This document shows positions 1 through 41,773 of a stretch of DNA of 41,773 nucleotides, in pieces. Origin of the DNA: a virus; IMG/VR virus record IMGVR_UViG_3300024280_000006, positions 1-41,773 of that record. One strand, 5' to 3'. The notes under the pieces were generated by a model. The model was given only the letters and a program-made list of their open reading frames with translations. It made no database searches and was not told the origin of the DNA. Positions within the stretch are counted from its first letter, which is position 1. Each line of letters opens with the position of its first letter. Both the position numbers and the translations under genes were made by a program.

Positions 1-127
1 AGAGATTGCAGGACTTGCGACCGGAGTGGGGCCGGTGTCAGTTACGTCGTAGATTCCGTTCTTGGTTACAGCCCACATCTTCCCCGGCACGCTGGTCGGA
101 GAAATGAATAGAGATGTCGCAGGAAGC
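1..127. repeat. Exact 127-bp terminal direct repeat, left copy (circular-assembly overlap)
   Basis: Bases 1-127 are identical to 41647-41773. The repeat lies inside a tail gene whose reading frame continues across the join (40375-41773 plus 128-381). A length of 127 equals a common largest k-mer in short-read assemblers, so this most likely marks a circular contig and not a biological terminal repeat. The unique genome length is then 41,646 bp. A genuine short terminal repeat of a linear phage, as in T7, cannot be excluded from sequence alone, but it would rarely fall in the middle of a structural gene. Confidence 0.95.
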
Positions 128-22335: not shown

Positions 22336-23208
22336 GTGAATGTTTTTTACCTGGACACCTGTCCAGCTAGCTCTGCTGCCGCCCTGCACGATAAGCATGT
22401 CGTAAAGATGGTGCTTGAAAGCGCACAGATTCTATGTTCTGTGCGTCACCGCGCAGGCTGGGTAGCCCCCTACAAACCCACCCACCTGAATCACCCATCT
22501 GTTAAATGGGCTGGCGCCAGCGTGCGCCATTATCAGTGGGTGCTGGAGCACTTCACCGGGCTGCTGCGTGAATACACCTATCGCTTCGGCAAGGTGCACG
22601 CCTGCGCAGAACTGCTGCCAACCCTGGAACATCTGCCACCGCTGGTGGACGCGGGCTTTGCCCCGCCCCCGCAGTGCATGCCAGATGAATTCAAGGGCCC
22701 CTGCCCTGTGACAGCATACCGAGCATATTACCTTGGACGGAAGGTACAACAGTCTCGATGGACGCGCCGTCCCGCGCCCGCTTTCATTCCTGGAGAACCC
22801 CAAATGACCGAAACCGCAGTTGCTTCCACCTCCACCCGTGCCACCGGCCCGCGCGGCCCCAAGGGCGTGGACTCTCACGCTCGCCTGACCGTGCTGGTGG
22901 GCGACAACCCCAAGCGTCCGGGCAGCAAGGCGCACGACCTGTTCAAGCTGTACGAGGGTGTCAGCACCGTGGGCGAGTTCCTGGCCAAGGGGGGCACCAC
23001 GGCAGCCATCCACTACGATGCCAGCCACGGCTTCATCCAGGTGGAAGGCTTTGAGCCGAAGGCCCTGCCCGAGCGCAAGGCCAAGCCCGCCCCGGTGGAA
23101 GCTGAAGCCGCCCCCGCCAAGAAGGCTCGCAAGGGCAAGAAGAAGGCTGCTGAAGCCGAAGCGCCTGCCGAAACGGCCGACACCACGGCTGTTGAAGAGC
23201 AGATGTAA
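22336..23208 (+). CDS. Conserved phage protein fused in frame to a DNA-binding-like C-terminal protein
   Basis: 290 residues from the GTG at 22336 (MNVFYLDTCPASSAAALHD), with GAGTGAGC in front; a TTG at 22321 is an alternative. Residues 1-150 (LHDKHVVKMVLESAQILCS, KWAGASVRHYQWVLEHFTG, YRAYYLGRKVQQSRWTRR) are a widespread phage family of unknown function, sometimes compared with pyrimidine-dimer glycosylases; that link is weak. Normally the protein ends soon after the WTRR patch. Here it runs without a stop into the next protein, which has its own ATG and ribosome binding site (22804). It is either a real fusion or two products from one frame. Confidence 0.65.
   Translation: MNVFYLDTCPASSAAALHDKHVVKMVLESAQILCSVRHRAGWVAPYKPTHLNHPSVKWAGASVRHYQWVLEHFTGLLREYTYRFGKVHACAELLPTLEHLPPLVDAGFAPPPQCMPDEFKGPCPVTAYRAYYLGRKVQQSRWTRRPAPAFIPGEPQMTETAVASTSTRATGPRGPKGVDSHARLTVLVGDNPKRPGSKAHDLFKLYEGVSTVGEFLAKGGTTAAIHYDASHGFIQVEGFEPKALPERKAKPAPVEAEAAPAKKARKGKKKAAEAEAPAETADTTAVEEQM
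22804..23208 (+). CDS. Internal in-frame gene: small basic protein with Lys/Ala-rich tail
   Basis: 134 residues starting MTETAVASTSTRATGPRGP. The ATG at 22804 follows CCTGGAGAACCCCA, the same type of ribosome binding site that precedes other genes here (for example CTGGAGAT at 28059 and 28776), so independent initiation is likely even though the upstream frame is open. The middle (LTVLVGDNPKRPGSKAHDL, FKLYEGVSTVGEFLAKGGT) looks like a small folded domain, and the last 40 residues are Lys/Ala/Glu-rich (KKARKGKKKAAEAEAPAET). A nucleic-acid-binding or histone-like role is possible but unproven. Confidence 0.6.
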   Translation: MTETAVASTSTRATGPRGPKGVDSHARLTVLVGDNPKRPGSKAHDLFKLYEGVSTVGEFLAKGGTTAAIHYDASHGFIQVEGFEPKALPERKAKPAPVEAEAAPAKKARKGKKKAAEAEAPAETADTTAVEEQM

Positions 23209-23221
23209 GCCGGTGCTCGCC

Positions 23222-23857
23222 ATGGAAGAACTACAAATTTACCGGGGCGTCTATGTGCGTCCCGGCACCATGGATGAGTACATCGTGCGGGAGGTCAAGT
23301 CGGCCTACAAGCTGCTTGACCTCCAGCCCGGTGACCGTGTGCTGGACATCGGCGCCAACATCGGAGCGTTCACTCGCTTGGCCACGGGTGCAGGCTGTCA
23401 CGTCTGCGCCATTGAGCCGGATCCAGAAAACTTCTTACTGCTGATGCGCAACGCGTCGGCCGCTGCGCTCATCAACGCCGCAGTGACTATTGACGGGCGC
23501 CCCGTCACCCTCTACGTCAACAAGGGCACCAACAAGGGCCTCCACTCTACTGTGCCCACCCTGGGCCGCGACAAAGTGGACGTTGACTCTGTGTCCATCC
23601 ACAACGTGCTGCTCGAGTTTGAGCCTGACAAGGTCAAGATTGACTGCGAAGGGGCAGAGTACGAGTTTCTGCACGTCATCTCGGCAAACCGAGACATCAA
23701 GCGGGTGGCTGTGGAATACAACCTGAGCCGGAAGCACGAGCAACAGGCTGCCCGCGTCGCCCACGATCAGTTCCTCCTTGGCCAGTGGCAGTGTCTGCGC
23801 GAACCGCGCTTTGGCACGAAAGCCTGGGCCACAATGGCTGTCTACAGCCGGGAGTAA
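23222..23857 (+). CDS. FkbM-type SAM-dependent methyltransferase
   Basis: 211 residues starting MEELQIYRGVYVRPGTMDE. SAM-binding motif I is VLDIGANIGAFTRLA (about 40-54), the acidic end of motif II is CAIEPDPENF, and KIDCEGAEYEFLHV (about 139-152) is the FkbM hallmark. FkbM enzymes O-methylate sugars and related small groups. Between a DNA-metabolism gene and a glycosyltransferase, the likely substrate is a sugar or modified base made by the phage, which is inference. The ribosome binding site is weak. Confidence 0.75.
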   Translation: MEELQIYRGVYVRPGTMDEYIVREVKSAYKLLDLQPGDRVLDIGANIGAFTRLATGAGCHVCAIEPDPENFLLLMRNASAAALINAAVTIDGRPVTLYVNKGTNKGLHSTVPTLGRDKVDVDSVSIHNVLLEFEPDKVKIDCEGAEYEFLHVISANRDIKRVAVEYNLSRKHEQQAARVAHDQFLLGQWQCLREPRFGTKAWATMAVYSRE

Positions 23858-23860
23858 ACC

Positions 23861-24661
23861 ATGGACATCATCATCCCCTCCAGTGGGCGCCCTGACAGGC
23901 AGCCCACGCTGGAGCAACTCGTCCGCGCTGGACTGCGCCCTATCTTGCTGGTGCAGTTTAATGAGTTCTCCATGTATAAGGAGTGCTGGGGTAGCATCGC
24001 CCGGGTGCATCCGCTGCCCCCCAGCATCACAACCATCGCCCCCACACGCCAGTGGATTCTGGAGCATGTGGGGGAGAGCGATCGCTTCTGCATGGTAGAC
24101 GATGATCTGTGGTTCTACACTCGCCGTGAAGAAGACCGTGGGCGGCTACGGGAGTTGACACCCTATGAACTGCGCGAAGGGTTCCAGACTCTTGATGATC
24201 TACTGAAGCCGGACATGGTGCGCCATGTGGCCCACGCGGGCTTCGCCGCCCGGGAAGGTGCCAACCGCAACACGGACCCCTACATCTACAACACCCGCAT
24301 CATGCGGGTGCTGGGGTATCGCCGCAGCACGCTCATTGACGAGAACATTCGCTTTGACGCGGTGGAGGTGATGGAAGACTTTCATGTGGCTCTCTCTTTG
24401 TTGGAAAAGGGCTACGGAAATGTTGTGGCGAACAATTGGTGCCACAATCAGGCAGGCAGTGGAGCGCAGGGTGGGTGCAGCGTGTGGCGCACCCCTGAGC
24501 TCCAGGCCCGGGCAGCGCATCGGCTGGCCGAGCTGCACCCAGGACTAGTCCGTGTGGTTCAAAAGGAAACGAAGACCGCATGGGGTGGGGGCGTCCGGAC
24601 GGACGTTGTTGTGCAATGGAAGAAGGCTTTCGAAAGGAGCTACCATGAAGACGCTGAATGA
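23861..24661 (+). CDS. GT-A-fold glycosyltransferase
   Basis: 266 residues starting MDIIIPSSGRPDRQPTLEQ, with CGGGAGTAAACC in front. The N-terminus IIIPSSGRPDRQ is the nucleotide-sugar Rossmann-like start of GT-A enzymes. RFCMVDDDLWFY (D80-D82) gives the metal-binding D-x-D, and VEVMEDFHVALSLLEKGYG contains an E-D pair like the catalytic base region. Standalone transferases of this size in phage base-modification clusters attach sugars to modified bases (TET/JBP-associated class), and I suspect that here from the neighbours. Cell-surface or virion glycosylation is the alternative. The donor sugar is unknown. Confidence 0.6.
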   Translation: MDIIIPSSGRPDRQPTLEQLVRAGLRPILLVQFNEFSMYKECWGSIARVHPLPPSITTIAPTRQWILEHVGESDRFCMVDDDLWFYTRREEDRGRLRELTPYELREGFQTLDDLLKPDMVRHVAHAGFAAREGANRNTDPYIYNTRIMRVLGYRRSTLIDENIRFDAVEVMEDFHVALSLLEKGYGNVVANNWCHNQAGSGAQGGCSVWRTPELQARAAHRLAELHPGLVRVVQKETKTAWGGGVRTDVVVQWKKAFERSYHEDAE

Positions 24662-24929
24662 TGTTTGCTTGGATCTGTGGGCCTGGGTGAAGACTGCCCC
24701 CAACGGCCCCGAGCGCGCCCTGCGCGGCGCCCTGGTGGGCGTGGTGGTGCTGCTGTGCGGCCTGGGCGTGGGTGCCGGGGCTGTGGTGTTGGCCATTTGG
24801 ATTGCAGACCTTGTGCTGACAATCAGTGTGTGGGTGTTGGGCATCGTGGGGCTGTGCATCGGCGTCGCCTGGATGAGCACGCTGCTGTGCAGCATCAACA
24901 AGGGAGAGAATGATGCTACGCCTCGGTGA
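24645..24929 (+). CDS. Small membrane protein, two predicted transmembrane segments
   Basis: 94 residues starting MKTLNDVCLDLWAWVKTAP, with AAAGGAGCTACC in front of the ATG at 24645. Two hydrophobic segments cover about residues 26-50 (GALVGVVVLLCGLGVGAGA, VVLAIWIADLV) and 52-75 (LTISVWVLGIVGLCIGVAW). It overlaps the glycosyltransferase by 17 bp and the next gene by 20 bp. It might anchor or export something for the modification cluster, or act as a holin-like protein; its place in the early/middle operon argues against lysis. Confidence 0.55.
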   Translation: MKTLNDVCLDLWAWVKTAPNGPERALRGALVGVVVLLCGLGVGAGAVVLAIWIADLVLTISVWVLGIVGLCIGVAWMSTLLCSINKGENDATPR

Positions 24930-25764
24930 GCTGGCCTACTGGATCAACGAGCGGGAGCGGGTGCGCCAGCGCAAAGAGTCTGGCGCACCTCCACCCTGGA
25001 CCAACAACACCATCATCGCCAACACCCGCTTCTGCAACGTGCGCCGTGAAGACGACAAGGTGACCCGCTGGATCCGCCAGAATTGGGGCGGCTACGTTCA
25101 TCACAAGAATTACACCCTGGCGATGGCGCTGGCCCGCTTCATCAATTGGATCCCCACCCTGGAGGTGATTGCGTTTCCAGAACACTGGACACCGAAGGCC
25201 CTGAAGGACTTGCTGTACCTGCGCGCAAAAAACGAGCAGGTGTTCGGCGGGGCGTACATCATCAGCACCAATGGGCGCAAGATGTCCAAGATAGACTATG
25301 TGGTGGACGTGGTGTTGGACCCACTCCATAACAGCCTGCACGCCCCATTTGTACAGCGGATGTTCGACCGCCCCTGTACCCTGCTGGAAGCTCACCACTG
25401 GTTTATCCAGCAGCAGGGGATCGGCAGCTTCATGAGTGGGCAGCTCATCGCCGACCTGAAGAACACTGCGGGCCACCCCCTGAGCTACGCCTTGGACTGG
25501 GAACGGTTCTGCTGTGCGGGGCCCGGCAGCAAGCGGGGGCTGAATCGCCTGTACGGGCGCGACGTGAACGCGGCCATGACCGAAGAGGTGTTCCAGGAGC
25601 TCATTCAACCCCTGCACGATCTGCTACCCCCGTTGCTGGATCGTGCAGTGTTCACTCACCCTGTTCTGCACATGCAAGACATCCAGAATTGCATGTGCGA
25701 GTTTGACAAGTTTATCCGCGTGAAGGAGGGCGGGCGTGCAAAATCAAACTATCGTGCAAGGTAA
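24910..25764 (+). CDS. DNA base hypermodification protein (5-hmdU kinase helical-domain / alpha-glutamyl-putrescinyl-thymine pyrophosphorylase family)
   Basis: 284 residues starting MMLRLGELAYWINERERVR, with AGGGAGAG in front. The N-terminal line PWTNNTIIANTRFCNVRRE followed by DDKVTRWI (motif about 40-54), the helix-hairpin-helix-like GIGSFMSGQLIADL (about 170-183) and GPGSKRGLNRLYGRD (about 204) are the signature of a phage family (HMUDK helical domain, aGPT-PPlase clade) linked by Aravind and colleagues to hypermodified thymidine in phage DNA. No P-loop kinase domain is fused, so it may act alone on a phosphorylated or pyrophosphorylated base. A thymidylate-synthase homologue follows, a combination expected for 5-hydroxymethyl-uracil-derived bases. 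Confidence 0.7.
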   Translation: MMLRLGELAYWINERERVRQRKESGAPPPWTNNTIIANTRFCNVRREDDKVTRWIRQNWGGYVHHKNYTLAMALARFINWIPTLEVIAFPEHWTPKALKDLLYLRAKNEQVFGGAYIISTNGRKMSKIDYVVDVVLDPLHNSLHAPFVQRMFDRPCTLLEAHHWFIQQQGIGSFMSGQLIADLKNTAGHPLSYALDWERFCCAGPGSKRGLNRLYGRDVNAAMTEEVFQELIQPLHDLLPPLLDRAVFTHPVLHMQDIQNCMCEFDKFIRVKEGGRAKSNYRAR

Positions 25765-25954
25765 GATGCACCTGCAAAAGTCCCGGGGTAGCCCGGGCTA
25801 CATCGGACTCGTGGTGCCCTTTGAAAACCCTGATCAATGGTACTACGAGCCGTTCCCAACTCTTGAGCTGGCGCAGCACTACGCCCATCAACACTCACTC
25901 GTCATCGAAGAGGAATACCATGAGCCCAAAGTTGATTCAAGCCCGGAACGTTAA
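25736..25954 (+). CDS. Hypothetical small protein between the two modification genes
   Basis: 72 residues starting MQNQTIVQGKMHLQKSRGS from a GTG at 25736 behind AAGGAGGGCGGGC; an ATG at 25766 is an alternative. It contains IGLVVPFENPDQWYYEPFP and a helical end (TLELAQHYAHQHSLVIEEE). It overlaps the genes on both sides by 29 and 35 bp, so translation is coupled through the three genes. No family was recognised. Confidence 0.5.
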   Translation: MQNQTIVQGKMHLQKSRGSPGYIGLVVPFENPDQWYYEPFPTLELAQHYAHQHSLVIEEEYHEPKVDSSPER

Positions 25955-26894
25955 TCACGCCCTCAGCGACGCCTTCTGGTGGCTGAAAACTGCTGGCTAC
26001 ACCAACACCAGCAGGAACGGCCCCGTGGTGGTGGCCCCCGGCCCGGTGCTGACTACCTACACCCATCCGATGGAGCGGGTGTTGTTCACCGCGCGACGCA
26101 ACGCCAACCCATTCTTCCATCTGCTGGAAAGCATTTGGATGCTGGCGGGGCGGGCGGACGCAACCTGGGTGGAGCGCTTCAACAAACGGATGCGTGAGTA
26201 CGCAGAGCCCCACAGCGACACGATTCACGGGGCGTATGGTCGACGGTGGCGCAGGCACTTCGGCATCGACCAACTGAAGAGCGCTTTTCGCCTCTTGTCA
26301 CGCGACAGCAAAACTCGACGCGCTGTGATCGGCATGTGGTCGCCTGAGTACGATCTGGACTCCTCGGCCAAAGATGTGCCCTGTAACACCCACATCTACC
26401 TGGACACCACTCAGGGCGAGCTGACCATGACCGTGTGCTGCCGCAGCAACGACGCTCTGTGGGGTGCCTACGGGGCCAACGCAGTCCACTTCAGCATTCT
26501 TCAACAGGCTCTGGCAGAGGGGCTCGGAGTTGCTGTGGGGGCATACCATCAGTTCAGCAACAACCTGCACGCCTACCCCACAGTGGAAATGGCGGGGGAG
26601 TTCTTGCAAAGCCCGCCGGAGCCGGACGACCGCTACGCCACCGACCCGCGCTGCAAGGTGTTGCCTCTGCTGAACGAGGAGGACACGCTGTGGTCATTCC
26701 TTCAAGAATGCCAAGTGTTTTGTGAGTTGGACCACTACGATGGGGACAACAAGTTCCTCGCCACGGTGGCCCAGCCGATGCGGGATTACTACCTGCATCG
26801 CAAGGAGGTCGGGGCCCTCATTTTCCTGCGGGAAATGCCCGACTGTGATTGGAAGTTGGCCGCAATCGAGTGGCACGAAAGGAATGTGAAGTGA
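25920..26894 (+). CDS. Thymidylate synthase homologue (possible dUMP hydroxymethyltransferase)
   Basis: 324 residues starting MSPKLIQARNVNHALSDAF; CGAAGAGGAATACC precedes the ATG at 25920. The nucleophile is C155 in KDVPCNTHIYLD, followed by CCRSNDALWGAYGANAVHF, in which N187 aligns with the pyrimidine-selecting Asn of thymidylate synthase (Asp in dCMP hydroxymethylase), and YHQFSNNLHAY for nucleotide contacts. The Asn suggests dUMP and not dCMP as substrate. It is longer than cellular ThyA (about 264) and lacks the conserved ThyA C-terminus, as in phage enzymes that make 5-hydroxymethyl-dUMP. Beside the hypermodification gene that role is attractive, but plain dTMP synthesis is equally compatible with the sequence. 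Confidence 0.75.
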   Translation: MSPKLIQARNVNHALSDAFWWLKTAGYTNTSRNGPVVVAPGPVLTTYTHPMERVLFTARRNANPFFHLLESIWMLAGRADATWVERFNKRMREYAEPHSDTIHGAYGRRWRRHFGIDQLKSAFRLLSRDSKTRRAVIGMWSPEYDLDSSAKDVPCNTHIYLDTTQGELTMTVCCRSNDALWGAYGANAVHFSILQQALAEGLGVAVGAYHQFSNNLHAYPTVEMAGEFLQSPPEPDDRYATDPRCKVLPLLNEEDTLWSFLQECQVFCELDHYDGDNKFLATVAQPMRDYYLHRKEVGALIFLREMPDCDWKLAAIEWHERNVK

Positions 26895-27445
26895 GCAAGG
26901 CAAACGACACCCAGGTGGGGGGCACCCACTACAACCAGAAGGACAAGCCCCAGCATTGGGACTTGGTGCAGATGTATGGGTGGGACTACTTCCAGGGTCA
27001 AATCACCAAGTACCTGATGCGCTGGAAGACGAAGCACAACACCCCAGAAGGCAGACTGGAGGACTTGAAGAAGGCTCGCCACTTCCTCGACAAGTACATC
27101 GAACTCCAGCAGGCCAACGTAGTCCGGGTCACGGAGGGGCAGGGCACGAGCAACGAGAAGATTCTGGCTGACATGCACGAGAACATCCGCCGCCAATTGG
27201 CCAAGGAGGCAGAGTCTTTGGCGAGGAACGAGAAGCAGATCTATGCTCGCTCGCTGCTTCCACAGGATTGCACGCAGGTCAGCAATGAGCACTTCCAGTG
27301 TGAAGGCTACTACGGCGACAACACTCAACTCTACAAGTGTCTGCGCTGTGGCGCGAATTTGCGAGCTGGGGGGCTGTTCGAAGCAGAGGTGCAACATCGA
27401 GTGTGTGCTGCAGAGCCAACGTCTGGTTACGTTAATCAAGGGTAA
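26891..27445 (+). CDS. DUF3310 protein with C-terminal cysteine motif
   Basis: 184 residues from the GTG at 26891 (MSKANDTQVGGTHYNQKDK), behind AAAGGAATGTGAA and overlapping the previous stop by GTGA. Residues 1-65 are the DUF3310 signature: VGGTHY, then PQHWDLVQMYGWDYFQGQI, KYLMRWKTKHNTPEGRLED and ARHFLDKYIE. DUF3310 is widespread in phages beside nucleotide and DNA metabolism genes; its activity is unproven. The C-terminal third has Cys residues (CLRCGAN, HRVCAAE) that might bind zinc, not usual for the family. Association with the thymidylate synthase suggests nucleotide metabolism. Confidence 0.7.
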   Translation: MSKANDTQVGGTHYNQKDKPQHWDLVQMYGWDYFQGQITKYLMRWKTKHNTPEGRLEDLKKARHFLDKYIELQQANVVRVTEGQGTSNEKILADMHENIRRQLAKEAESLARNEKQIYARSLLPQDCTQVSNEHFQCEGYYGDNTQLYKCLRCGANLRAGGLFEAEVQHRVCAAEPTSGYVNQG

Positions 27446-28000: not shown

Positions 28001-28058
28001 GCGCCACGCTGCCCCGGCGCTTTCAGGGGCAGCAACCATGTCAACTCTGGAGATTTCA

Positions 28059-28667
28059 ATGAGCAACACCAACAACCTGGAACTGAACAAGGGCGACGAC
28101 TTCATCGTTGCGGTGGACGTCAGCGGCAGCATGCAAGCCACGGACTGCCCCGGGGGCGTGACGCGCATCAAGTTCGCGGCGGAAAACTTCCGCACCTTCG
28201 CCAAGGAAGCCGCCAAGTGGGACACCGACGGCGTCAGCCTGTACGCCTTCGGCGCCCGGGTGCACAGCTTCCCCGACGTGGCCGAAGCGCAGATCGACGC
28301 CACGGTGGACAAGCTGCTGGGCCTGCCCCTGGAAGGCATGACCCGCACCGACCAAGTGATCGCCGCTGCCTACAGCGAGCACAAGGCCCGCAAGAACGAG
28401 CAGACCGTGCTGATGGTCTTCACCGACGGCGAGCCCAGCGACGCCGATGCCGTGCTGCGCATCATCGCGGACATCACCAACGAGGTGAAGGACGAGCGCG
28501 AGTTCAACGTCATCTTCATCACCGTGGGCGACCGCTCCCCCAGCCTCCAGGCTTTCCTGGACAAGCTGGACGACGCCATCCCCGGGGCCAAGCACGACAT
28601 CGTGGACGTGAAGAAGCTGGAGGAGGTGGACTTCTACGCCGCCTTCGACGGTGCCCTGAACGGCTGA
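28059..28667 (+). CDS. von Willebrand factor A (VWA) domain protein with intact MIDAS
   Basis: 202 residues starting MSNTNNLELNKGDDFIVAV, with TCTGGAGATTTCA in front of the ATG at 28059. The metal-ion-dependent adhesion site is complete: D20-V-S22-G-S24, a Thr near 95-97 (GMTRTDQ) and D123 in VFTDGEPSDA. The whole protein is one VWA domain with no signal peptide, so it acts in the cytoplasm. It is followed by an AAA+ ATPase gene; paired VWA and AAA proteins (MoxR-VWA, RavA-ViaA, CoxD-CoxE, chelatases) remodel or load metals into partner proteins. The target here is unknown. Confidence 0.82.
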   Translation: MSNTNNLELNKGDDFIVAVDVSGSMQATDCPGGVTRIKFAAENFRTFAKEAAKWDTDGVSLYAFGARVHSFPDVAEAQIDATVDKLLGLPLEGMTRTDQVIAAAYSEHKARKNEQTVLMVFTDGEPSDADAVLRIIADITNEVKDEREFNVIFITVGDRSPSLQAFLDKLDDAIPGAKHDIVDVKKLEEVDFYAAFDGALNG

Positions 28668-28683
28668 GTGCATCCAGGCAACA

Positions 28684-28703
28684 GGGGCTAGTTTTCTAGC
28701 CCC
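28684..28703 (+). terminator. Hairpin between the VWA and AAA genes
   Basis: GGGGCTAG, loop TTTT, CTAGCCCC: a perfect 8-bp stem 16 bases after the VWA stop. No T run follows, so it probably moderates readthrough or stabilises RNA. A promoter-like TACAGT (28711-28716) without a good -35 follows, then GC-rich inverted bases up to the AAA gene. Confidence 0.5.
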
Positions 28704-28775
28704 GATAGGGTACAGTGGGCCCCGGCCCTACCAAAACGGGGTCCGTACAATGTTTCAACCAACCTGGAGATCGCA

Positions 28776-30236
28776 ATGAGCGGTAACATGAATGAGATGA
28801 GCACCAGCGAACTGAACGCCCTGGTGGCGGCAGCACAGAAAACCCTGAAGGGCAAGGTGGCTGTGGACGTGGCCGAGGTCAAGCACCACGGCAGCCAACT
28901 GATCCTCCCCGAGGGCATGTCCCTGGATGGTGCGATCGACCTGATCAAGCGCCGCCAAGCCTGGGAAACCCAGACGGTCAAGGTCTTCGAAGAGGTGGAC
29001 TGCTTCGTGTGGGACGGCGCCAACGCGCTGAACGACGTGCTGGAAGAGGTCTACGGTTGGGCCCCCACCAGCGCAGGCAACTCCAGCATCAACGTGGAAG
29101 TGGCCTACGGTGTGACCAAGGCTGTGCCGTGGGGCAGCTTCGATCTGCCCGGGGTGCAGGCCCGTGTGGACACCGGCTACACCCGCAAGAATGGCCGCTT
29201 CATCTTCCAGCTGGAAGCCAAGGTGACCCGCGCCCACGAACATCACGTCAAGGCCCTGTTTGCCAAGGTGCAGGCCCGCGTGAAGTCGCACAGCATCTAC
29301 AAGGGCAAGGCCATCAAGCTGCGCATGCGTGACGAAAACGGCGAGGCGATGCCCCTGCCGGTGGTGGAGTTCCTCAACACGGACGCCATCAAGCCCGAGA
29401 ACCTGATCTACAGCAAGGACGTGATGGCCCAGGTGGAAACCAACCTGTTCACCCCCATCCGCCGCGTGCATGACCTGATCGCCAACAACATCCCCGTCAA
29501 GCGCGGCGTGCTGCTGGCGGGCACCTACGGCACCGGCAAGACCTTGGCTGCCACGGTGGCCAGCCGCATCGCGGTGGACAACGGTGTGACCTACATCTAC
29601 ATCCCCCACGCCGACGAGTTGGCCGATGCCGTGCAACTGGCCAAGCAGTACCAGTCCCCGGCCAGCGTCATCTTCTGCGAAGACGTGGACCGCGTGCTGA
29701 GCGGCGACCGCACGCAGGGCATGGACGACATCCTCAACATCATCGATGGCATCGATACCAAGGATGCTCGCATCATGGTGGTGCTGACCACCAACGACAT
29801 CAAGAGCATCAACCCCGCCATGCTGCGCCCAGGTCGCCTGGACGGTGTGGTGGAGGTGACCACCCCTGATGCCGAAGCGGTGGAACGCCTGATCCGCTAC
29901 TACGGTGGCGACGCCATCAGCCCCGAGGCCGACCTGACCGCCGCTGGCAAGGAACTGGCGGGCAACATCCCGGCCACCATCGCCGAAGTGGTCAAGCGTG
30001 CCAAGCTGGCGCAGATGTCTCTCGGCAAGGCTGGCGACCCGCTGGGCAAGCTGGACGGCGACGGCCTGCTGATTGCGGCCAAGAGCATGAGCGGTCAACT
30101 GCGCCTGCTGGCCGAGCGCATCGCCGCCGACGAGGAAGAGAAGACCATCCCGCCGCTGGAGCAAAGCCTGGGCGCTGTGATGATGAGCGCTGTGCAAGCC
30201 AGCATCGCCGTGGAGCGTGCCAAGGCCACTGCCTGA
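28776..30236 (+). CDS. AAA+ ATPase (classic AAA type) with novel N-terminal domain
   Basis: 486 residues starting MSGNMNEMSTSELNALVAA, with CCTGGAGATCGCA in front. The AAA module begins near 220: Walker A GTYGTGKT (249-256), Walker B VIFCEDVDRV (298-307, the first acidic position E302-D303), sensor 1 VVLTTND, and MLRPGRLDGVVEV with the arginine-finger region, all typical of Cdc48/FtsH-like AAA rather than MoxR. The first ~220 residues (FEEVDCFVWDGANALNDVL, AYGVTKAVPWGSFDLPGVQ) were not recognised and may bind substrate or the VWA partner. The VWA gene lies 108 bp upstream. It likely forms a ring that unfolds or remodels proteins. Confidence 0.8.
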   Translation: MSGNMNEMSTSELNALVAAAQKTLKGKVAVDVAEVKHHGSQLILPEGMSLDGAIDLIKRRQAWETQTVKVFEEVDCFVWDGANALNDVLEEVYGWAPTSAGNSSINVEVAYGVTKAVPWGSFDLPGVQARVDTGYTRKNGRFIFQLEAKVTRAHEHHVKALFAKVQARVKSHSIYKGKAIKLRMRDENGEAMPLPVVEFLNTDAIKPENLIYSKDVMAQVETNLFTPIRRVHDLIANNIPVKRGVLLAGTYGTGKTLAATVASRIAVDNGVTYIYIPHADELADAVQLAKQYQSPASVIFCEDVDRVLSGDRTQGMDDILNIIDGIDTKDARIMVVLTTNDIKSINPAMLRPGRLDGVVEVTTPDAEAVERLIRYYGGDAISPEADLTAAGKELAGNIPATIAEVVKRAKLAQMSLGKAGDPLGKLDGDGLLIAAKSMSGQLRLLAERIAADEEEKTIPPLEQSLGAVMMSAVQASIAVERAKATA

Positions 30237-40378: not shown

Positions 40379-41773
40379 AGGGTGCCGCCCACCTGGGCCA
40401 GAATGTCGCAAGACAGAATGCGGGTGCCTCCAGGCACTTCAGTCTTCATGATGAGGCTGCCGTAGTAGCCCCGATCGCTGGGGGTGTCTCGCCACTGTCG
40501 ATAATCTCGCATGGAGCTTCCCCACAGCGCAGTGCCCCAATCTTCAATCCCCCAGCCCTGTGGGATCTCAGGAACATCGGTGGCAGGCGTGTCGGCCGGA
40601 CCCCCGCCTTTGAAGTCGGTCAGCATTCGCGTGCTGAAGTTGGGGCGCTGCTTGCAGACAAAGTAAGGACGGGCCATCTTGAAGGACTTAAGCAACCCTG
40701 GAGCGCCGAAGTCTGAATAGGCCCACTGCACGAGCCCTTGAATGAGAATGCCCCCGGACCCATCTTGCGCCACGCCATCCTTGGTGCCGCGCTGAACGAT
40801 GTAAACCGTCCCGGTGTCTCCCCCAGAAAACATGAGGTCTGCGGCCACCACAGCACAGCGCATCGGCACGCCAGAGCTGGCGCCCCATGCGTTTGTGATC
40901 GTGTTCATGATGTATTGTCGATTCACCACAGACCCATAGTTGGGTACTGTAGCGATCAGCAGGTTCTGGCCATTCAATGTGTAGAGTCCCCAGCCCCGCT
41001 GATTGAAGCTGTACGCACTCTCTTGACTGAAGGTGGGTTGCACCTTTTCAGTGTAGTCGCTCTTGTCTGTAGAAAGGAAGTTTTGGCCGCCCCGGGTGAC
41101 GAACGACATTGGTTGAATGCCCAGCGTGCTGAGCACGAGCAGGTCGCCTCCGTACTGAACAAAGCCACGTCGCCCGCTGGGAATCTGCCCAATGTTCCAC
41201 TGACCCACCAGTCCAAAGGTGCTGGCGCTGCTGGGGTCCGTGCCCTTGTACACCAGAACATCACCATTGGTGCCAACGATGACCAGCAAATCGTCAATGC
41301 CCTCGCCGGCGTCGAGGGTCCAGTTCGCAATGAACTCAACCTTGCCCCCACGCTTGAAAAGAGGCCCAACATCCAGTTTGACTGCCGCACCATAGATGGA
41401 GTCGACAGGAAGATACCACAGATTCGTAGACTCCTGCTCCACAAACCACAGGCGCTTCTTCCAAGACAGAGGGAAGCACAGATCGTTGGGATTGATGTTG
41501 GTGACCTGCACATTGGTCACCTTGGCCCAGGTGGTGCCATCGTAGATGTGATAGCCATCTGTCTCGCTGCAAGCCACCAAGTAGCTTCCGCTGATGTTTG
41601 CAAACATCGTGGAGTGAACAACCCCAGCGGCCTCTGAGCCGGACAAAGAGATTGCAGGACTTGCGACCGGAGTGGGGCCGGTGTCAGTTACGTCGTAGAT
41701 TCCGTTCTTGGTTACAGCCCACATCTTCCCCGGCACGCTGGTCGGAGAAATGAATAGAGATGTCGCAGGAAGC
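40375..41773 (-). CDS. Packaged-DNA stabilisation / tail accessory protein, C-terminal part (begins at 381)
   Basis: This is the main part of the 550-residue protein whose first 97 codons are at 91-381. It includes KMWAVTKNGIYDVTDTGPT at the junction, then an all-beta, propeller-like series of short repeats (DLLVIVGTNGDVLVYKGTD, GDLLVLSTLGIQPMSFVTR, NLLIATVPNYGSVVNRQYI, FSGGDTGTVYIVQ), ending LSCDILAQVGGTL. This resembles the stabilisation or tail-hub proteins of short-tailed phages, which cap the portal side of the neck. The stop TGA overlaps the next gene's GTG. The frame across the contig end is continuous. The 127 bp at 41647-41773 are the second copy of 1-127. Confidence 0.7.
   Translation of the reverse strand, partial: LPATSLFISPTSVPGKMWAVTKNGIYDVTDTGPTPVASPAISLSGSEAAGVVHSTMFANISGSYLVACSETDGYHIYDGTTWAKVTNVQVTNINPNDLCFPLSWKKRLWFVEQESTNLWYLPVDSIYGAAVKLDVGPLFKRGGKVEFIANWTLDAGEGIDDLLVIVGTNGDVLVYKGTDPSSASTFGLVGQWNIGQIPSGRRGFVQYGGDLLVLSTLGIQPMSFVTRGGQNFLSTDKSDYTEKVQPTFSQESAYSFNQRGWGLYTLNGQNLLIATVPNYGSVVNRQYIMNTITNAWGASSGVPMRCAVVAADLMFSGGDTGTVYIVQRGTKDGVAQDGSGGILIQGLVQWAYSDFGAPGLLKSFKMARPYFVCKQRPNFSTRMLTDFKGGGPADTPATDVPEIPQGWGIEDWGTALWGSSMRDYRQWRDTPSDRGYYGSLIMKTEVPGGTRILSCDILAQVGGTL
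41647..41773. repeat. Exact 127-bp terminal direct repeat, right copy
   Basis: Identical to 1-127. See the left copy for interpretation: most likely the overlap of a circular assembly, so that 41646 is followed by 1. Confidence 0.95.

Follow-up and report, generated by a model that had tools for sequence, protein, structure and literature searches.

The viral record IMGVR_UViG_3300024280_000006 was analysed over its whole length of 41,773 nt (the window), with the focus on an island of genes at positions 22,336 to 27,445. The island is probably a kinase-free cassette for thymine hypermodification, in which 5-hydroxymethyl-deoxyuridine (5-hmdU) is made by a thymidylate synthase (TS) homologue, a sugar is added by a glycosyltransferase of the TAGT family, and an HMUDK_hel protein (HEL) serves as the recognition partner. 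On comparative evidence, sugar transfer probably replaces phosphorylation and amino-acid transfer. The initial annotation had proposed that 5-hmdU is made and further decorated here; the island fits that proposal, its core genes match the relevant profiles, and all the genes named were found in place on the + strand (Table 1). The same gene order recurred in dozens of diverged viruses, and the arrangement is therefore beyond chance.

The TS homologue would catalyze the first step. Its Cys155 and Asn187 aligned with C146 and N177 of E. coli ThyA, which gives it the catalytic Cys and the dUMP-type Asn of a dUMP hydroxymethylase. C155, R175, S176, D178 and N187 were invariant across 112 relatives, N187 being the dUMP-discriminating position. 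The dCMP hydroxymethylase of T4, gp42, has Asp in this segment (GFRND), whereas no Asp was present at the Asn177-equivalent position of the window protein or the 112 relatives, all of which had Asn. When the window protein alone was searched against solved structures, the nearest was the CMP 5-hydroxymethylase 5b6d (1.8e-15), with thymidylate synthases behind at 3e-9. The closest relatives were proteins of M6/YuA-type phages, and the subfamily includes gp58 of phage M6, whose DNA contains a 5-hmdU-derived base (PMC6449724). From this subfamily and the closeness to the CMP 5-hydroxymethylase, we infer that the window TS forms 5-hmdUMP rather than dTMP.

The glycosyltransferase matched PF20691 with 70.1 bits (cut-off 27.5) and kept the DDD motif (D80-D81-D82) that is invariant in TAGT. 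Its structural model had a pLDDT of 93 and matched GT-A enzymes at Z of about 15, and a search of the sequence against the PDB gave no relatives. The TAGT of phages T2 and T6 (beta-glucosyl-HMC-alpha-glucosyltransferase) is a GT-A enzyme that adds glucose to already glucosylated 5-hydroxymethylcytosine (5-hmC) in phage DNA (PMC13216743). The window protein is like it in family (PF20691/phrog_842) and in the GT-A fold. The T2/T6 enzyme adds a second glucose, whereas no alpha- or beta-GT was recognised among the annotated genes of the window, and the TS there is dUMP-type. The glycosyltransferase had been read earlier as an added decoration; its presence and GT-A class stood, whereas the TAGT family appears to replace the kinase route and not to supplement it.

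For HEL, a match to a base-modification profile had been set beforehand as the check, and PF18723 (HMUDK_hel) was matched at 9.3e-39 (133.9 bits, cut-off 25), with the motifs RFCNVRRED, GIGSFMSGQ and GPGSKRGLN present. The protein had been placed in an HMUDK_hel/alpha-glutamyl-putrescinyl-thymine family; the former half of this assignment was retained, and the latter (aGPT-PPlase, that is, the amino-acid:DNA transferase ADDT) was dropped because PF18724 was unmatched in the genome. A search of the sequence against the PDB gave no relatives. The AlphaFold model, compared by VIA, gave Z 10.6 to MjOGG (3knt), and the upper matches were nearly all HhH-GPD proteins, including DNA glycosylases, with DUF2419 as the exception. 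Moreover, the model matched PUGT of phage PaMx11 (8z2m), a 5-phosphomethyl-dU (5-PmdU) glycinyltransferase and ADDT enzyme, at Z 9.7 over 216 residues. HEL thus has, as judged from models, a probable HhH-GPD DNA-glycosylase fold like that of PUGT, and despite its name it is unlikely to be part of a kinase. By motif spacing only, the invariant Phe174 of HEL stands where EndoIII-type enzymes have Lys, and an invariant Asp196 follows the hairpin. The nearest viral models in BFVD were HMUDK_hel of phiRSL1 and PhiW-14, together with a 637-aa SP10 protein named 5-hmdU DNA kinase, which is consistent with a kinase-HEL fusion. An apparent 855-aa HEL fusion in locus L014 was rejected as an upstream read-through open reading frame (ORF).

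Six-frame profile searches of the window gave no match to the 5-hmdU DNA kinase (PF18748), ADDT (PF18724), Tet_JBP (PF12851), the P-loop kinase AAA_33 or thymidylate kinase. The P-loop kinase and amino-acid:DNA transferase of an M6/ViI-type pathway were thus both unmatched there. The earlier remarks that a TET/JBP enzyme and a separate P-loop 5-hmdU kinase are absent, and that the route would differ from those of SPO1, phiW-14 and ViI, are borne out. With an exact direct repeat of 127 bp at both termini, the window very probably represents a whole genome (41,646 bp), circular or circularly permuted; the missing kinase, ADDT and TET genes are therefore not due to truncation. PF18748 and PF18724 were also found in 0 of 42 whole TAGT-bearing viral records, the window included, with a few near-duplicates among them. 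The 5-hmdU DNA kinase was annotated elsewhere as "terminase small subunit" (M6 gp54, P26218 gp15 and Bhz59; L002:12414-12977, L003:10603-11181, L019:6246-6983), a misannotation that hides the pathway.

Related loci were gathered from viral contigs with HEL, TAGT and TS queries and from genome contigs, and were scored with profiles built for the analysis. The scans were centred on the family of the window, and the proportions are no census; the point lies in the zero overlap. When HEL was clustered at 90% identity, 125 clusters were obtained: 76 had TAGT, 24 had the kinase and/or ADDT, none had both and 25 had neither. TS was present in 75 of the 76 TAGT clusters, and in 69 of them TAGT preceded HEL on a shared strand, the two overlapping by a median of 65 nt. 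A scan that started from TAGT found HEL in 74/74 newly listed loci and TS in 73/74, some of them on contigs shared with the HEL scan. At least eight switches between TAGT and kinase were counted on the HEL tree, where the labels were clustered yet clearly not of single origin, and at least eight on the TS tree. The chassis was shared as well: locus L018 reads SNF2 helicase, ADDT, FAD-dependent oxidoreductase, kinase, HEL, TS, HD and DUF3310, and the window reads SNF2, TAGT, HEL, TS and DUF3310. The cluster counts, the switches and the shared chassis therefore indicate that HEL and TS form a constant core and that the decorating enzyme is exchanged. Some loci lacked HEL, namely Rhodoferax phage P26218 and MW202557 (ADDT, kinase and TS) and MW202897 (TAGT and TS).

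Several clusters with neither module held other genes in the decorator slot, including unclassified families, divergent TAGT and radical SAM proteins. The slot of L100 contained a divergent TAGT relative (phrog_842, 1.4e-8). A weak GT4/GT1 match was obtained for L055:4719-5996, with homologues in the slot at L040:3448-4401 and L042:4839-5987. Two further families were unclassified (L049:5030-5992/L058:104-1057/L051:7606-8538 and L083:4998-5999/L084:1-879). Searches of the unclassified slot proteins against the PDB gave no relatives, and the three families had no clear Pfam or PHROG match; in view of the L055 match, they may be alternative DNA glycosyltransferases. In addition, radical SAM enzymes occupied the slot beside HEL and TS, in viruses with neither TAGT nor kinase, at L083:4051-5025 (SPASM), L100:4119-5093 and L040:4622-5548, and possibly represent a third chemistry. 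The gene immediately ahead of HMUDK_hel on one viral contig of 463 kb encodes an inosine-uridine nucleoside hydrolase (L064:5108-6837).

The proposed pathway begins with the conversion of dUMP to 5-hydroxymethyl-dUMP by the TS homologue, a step supported by homology. Host kinases would then phosphorylate this product up to the triphosphate, from which the phage DNA polymerase would place 5-hmdU in DNA for some or all of the T. As family, fold and gene order suggest, TAGT would put a sugar on the hydroxymethyl group in DNA, yielding a base-J-like O-glycosyl-5-hmdU; the donor is probably a nucleotide sugar of the host, since the phage has no recognised gene for making one. Least certain is the last step, in which HEL would recognise and flip 5-hmdU, making it available to the decorating enzyme. 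HEL would be the partner that both routes, by sugar and by kinase/amino acid, have in common: because it is kept with either chemistry, the two should share its substrate, for which 5-hmdU in DNA is the simplest candidate. We prefer a role for HEL in recognising and flipping 5-hmdU. The modified DNA would withstand host nucleases.

Several results weigh against this kinase-free cassette. The AAA_33 and thymidylate-kinase searches of the genome revealed no dNMP kinase that could act on 5-hmdUMP. The acceptor of the window TAGT is deduced from gene order, whereas the T2/T6 enzyme uses already glucosylated 5-hmC. For the fold of HEL, a Z of about 10 is moderate and under 13, the level trusted by the tool for helical proteins, and in Foldseek no PDB structure matched below 0.001 (E above 0.1). 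Fourteen residues of HEL (N43, R46, D49, R76, N79, F174, D182, D196, G204, G206, G210, C263, E264 and K267) were 100% conserved in the TAGT and kinase classes alike, and the strictly conserved polar residues among them may point to an enzyme and not a mere flipper. Finally, the PF18748 profile overlooks some kinases, G040/L061 having been caught only by a profile built for the analysis, which leaves room for a divergent kinase.

The conservation of these polar residues in all classes speaks for an alternative that is possible, though somewhat doubtful: HEL would itself be an enzyme, such as a second transferase, and as a diverged sister of ADDT it would add a group to 5-hmdU or to the sugar, or trim one there, with TAGT acting before or after it. 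The structural match to the glycinyltransferase PUGT agrees with such a role, as do the ADDT-named viral models in the BFVD match list and the HhH region and C-terminal motifs (QDxQNxLCEFxK and QExETxLCxxK), which aligned weakly between the two profiles. However, hhalign of HEL against ADDT returned nothing with small alignments and a weak E of 0.095 with large ones; homology by profile was rejected on this score, and it is the similarity of fold that supports kinship. Furthermore, HEL occurs with at least two unrelated chemistries, so its substrate must be common to both, and the kinase that would supply ADDT with its substrate is missing from the TAGT genomes.

That hypermodification follows the classical kinase/ADDT pathway, through a kinase or ADDT too diverged to be recognised and with TAGT as an extra decoration, seems improbable. 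The failure of PF18748 to detect genuine members such as L061 would allow it, and several ORFs of the window are without a family, but the two families were absent from all 42 TAGT records, kinase and TAGT never met in the 125 clusters, and the window had no P-loop AAA_33 or thymidylate-kinase match. It is slightly less improbable, though still unlikely, that TS makes 5-hmdCMP (or only dTMP) and that TAGT either adds glucose to 5-hmC, as happens in T-even phages, or acts on glycans of the cell surface. TAGT is known from the 5-hmC DNA of T2/T6 (PMC13216743), and a dCMP-hydroxymethylase was proposed in the paper on Brevibacterium phage LuckyBarnes (PMC6588365). Against this, Asn occupied the dUMP/dCMP-discriminating position in 112/112 TS relatives and in LuckyBarnes, where T4 gp42 has Asp in the segment; thymidine hypermodification of the M6 type employs this TS subfamily; and HEL, named from 5-hmdU phages, accompanied TAGT throughout the TAGT-first scan.

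The cassette was compared with known systems. Like the window, the locus of Pseudomonas phages M6/YuA has HMUDK_hel (31% identical) beside a dUMP-hydroxymethylase-type TS (43%). The M6 locus contains ADDT gp51 (PF18724), the P-loop kinase gp54 (PF18748), HMUDK_hel gp55 and TS gp58; further tailoring genes, among them one for a radical SAM protein, are present and TAGT is absent, whereas in the window TAGT is present and both kinase and ADDT are missing. P26218 and MW202557 share with the window the chassis from SNF2 helicase to TS and the TS subfamily, and differ in carrying ADDT and kinase in the slot and no HMUDK_hel. LuckyBarnes (NC_047851; L202:10436-14451) carries the same cassette, with the order TS-TAGT-TAGT-HMUDK_hel, a HEL match at 4.6e-68 and no kinase or ADDT match. 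Unlike the window, it is a siphovirus of an actinobacterium, with two TAGT copies and a C-terminal extension on TS. Its gp41, published as a predicted dCMP-hydroxymethylase, has the dUMP-type Asn, and its "hypothetical" gp38 is HMUDK_hel. Base J is made from T in DNA by a TET/JBP oxygenase. The window differs from that route in having no PF12851 match, and its 5-hmdU would arise at the nucleotide level. The expected product is nevertheless of the type of base J of kinetoplastids, O-glycosyl-5-hmU (PMC6449724).

The neighbouring genes varied more than the core. The FkbM gene of the window immediately precedes TAGT, and its product was 48% identical to an FkbM encoded 3 nt upstream of TAGT in locus L007; FkbM occurred in 3 of 76 TAGT clusters. 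TAGT and HEL were adjacent or nearly so in relatives, the intervening membrane protein being missing from most of them. Both proteins were rare in relatives and were rejected as core components in favour of lineage-specific extras. The methylated sugar suggested earlier survives as a local possibility and not as a general feature: FkbM may methylate the sugar in the window genome only. The small ORF between HMUDK_hel and TS had homologues at the same place in two relatives. The phrog_624 gene, a candidate partner of TAGT, was a frequent upstream neighbour of it (49/60 TAGT against 2/13 kinase clusters among loci covering SNF2, with only four phylogenetically independent pairs). DUF3310 stood beside both module types (64/76 TAGT and 17/24 kinase clusters). 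It was rejected as the missing kinase, since the PHROGs labelled "nucleotide kinase" matched over part of the profile only, in phrog_236 the C-terminal third. At 28056-30236, past the downstream end of the island, a von Willebrand A protein is encoded beside an AAA ATPase, a pair that recalls MoxR-VWA systems. Elsewhere in the window, PHROG matches were obtained for an amidase, portal, large terminase, family-A polymerase and primase. The similar small virus MW202557, which has a P22-like portal, was deposited as Podoviridae.

Table 1. Features of the island and of the termini of the window.
Feature	Position	Strand	Evidence
Terminal direct repeat, left copy	1..127	none	identical to 41647-41773
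phrog_624 "DNA binding protein", PF03013-like (pyrimidine-dimer glycosylase) N-terminus	22336..23208	+	phrog_624 1.4e-47; PF03013 20.5 bits, cut-off 23
FkbM-type methyltransferase, accessory	23222..23857	+	PF05050 9.3e-14
TAGT-family GT-A glycosyltransferase, predicted DNA 5-hmdU glycosyltransferase	23861..24661	+	PF20691 3.2e-19; phrog_842 3e-44
Small hydrophobic, predicted membrane protein between TAGT and HEL	24645..24929	+	sequence only
HMUDK_hel (HEL), predicted HhH-GPD-fold 5-hmdU-DNA-binding/base-flipping partner	24910..25764	+	PF18723 9.3e-39; AlphaFold pLDDT 87
Small conserved ORF between HMUDK_hel and TS	25766..25954	+	homologues at same place in L007, L015
TS homologue, predicted dUMP 5-hydroxymethylase (first step)	25920..26894	+	PF00303 1.4e-15; phrog_5131 5.8e-94
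DUF3310-like protein	26891..27445	+	PF11753 21.8 bits, cut-off 24; phrog_5839 6.2e-23
Terminal direct repeat, right copy	41647..41773	none	identical to 1..127

The colocation of these genes is not new, because a region with TS, "aG/PT-PPlase1" and a TAGT-like gene was reported in 2022 for pelagiphages of HTVC023P-type clades; in the parts of that report consulted, these are colocated auxiliary genes, and kinase exclusion, module swapping and a thymine-glycosylation route are not proposed (PMC9599517). Judged apart from the central thymidine-hypermodification literature, the kinase-free swap and the thymine substrate for solitary TAGTs appear to be new. A study of 2019 stated that glucosylated 5-hmdU was unreported in phage genomes (PMC6449724), and in a 2026 paper 288 of 753 phage genomes had a "solitary" TAGT whose substrate and role were unexplained (PMC13216743). 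The cassette predicts 5-hmdU in DNA as the substrate of one large group of these solitary TAGTs. It also parts HMUDK_hel from the kinase of its name and places it in the 5-hmdU core. Tentatively, HEL could be a general reader of 5-hmdU whose DNA-glycosylase fold has come to present the base instead of cutting it, and which would license interchangeable decorators (TAGT, other candidate glycosyltransferases, or the kinase with the amino-acid transferase), and base-J-like glycosylated thymine could then be widespread in environmental podoviruses. LuckyBarnes, growing on Brevibacterium iodinum ATCC 15728, offers a cultured system in which the prediction is directly testable.

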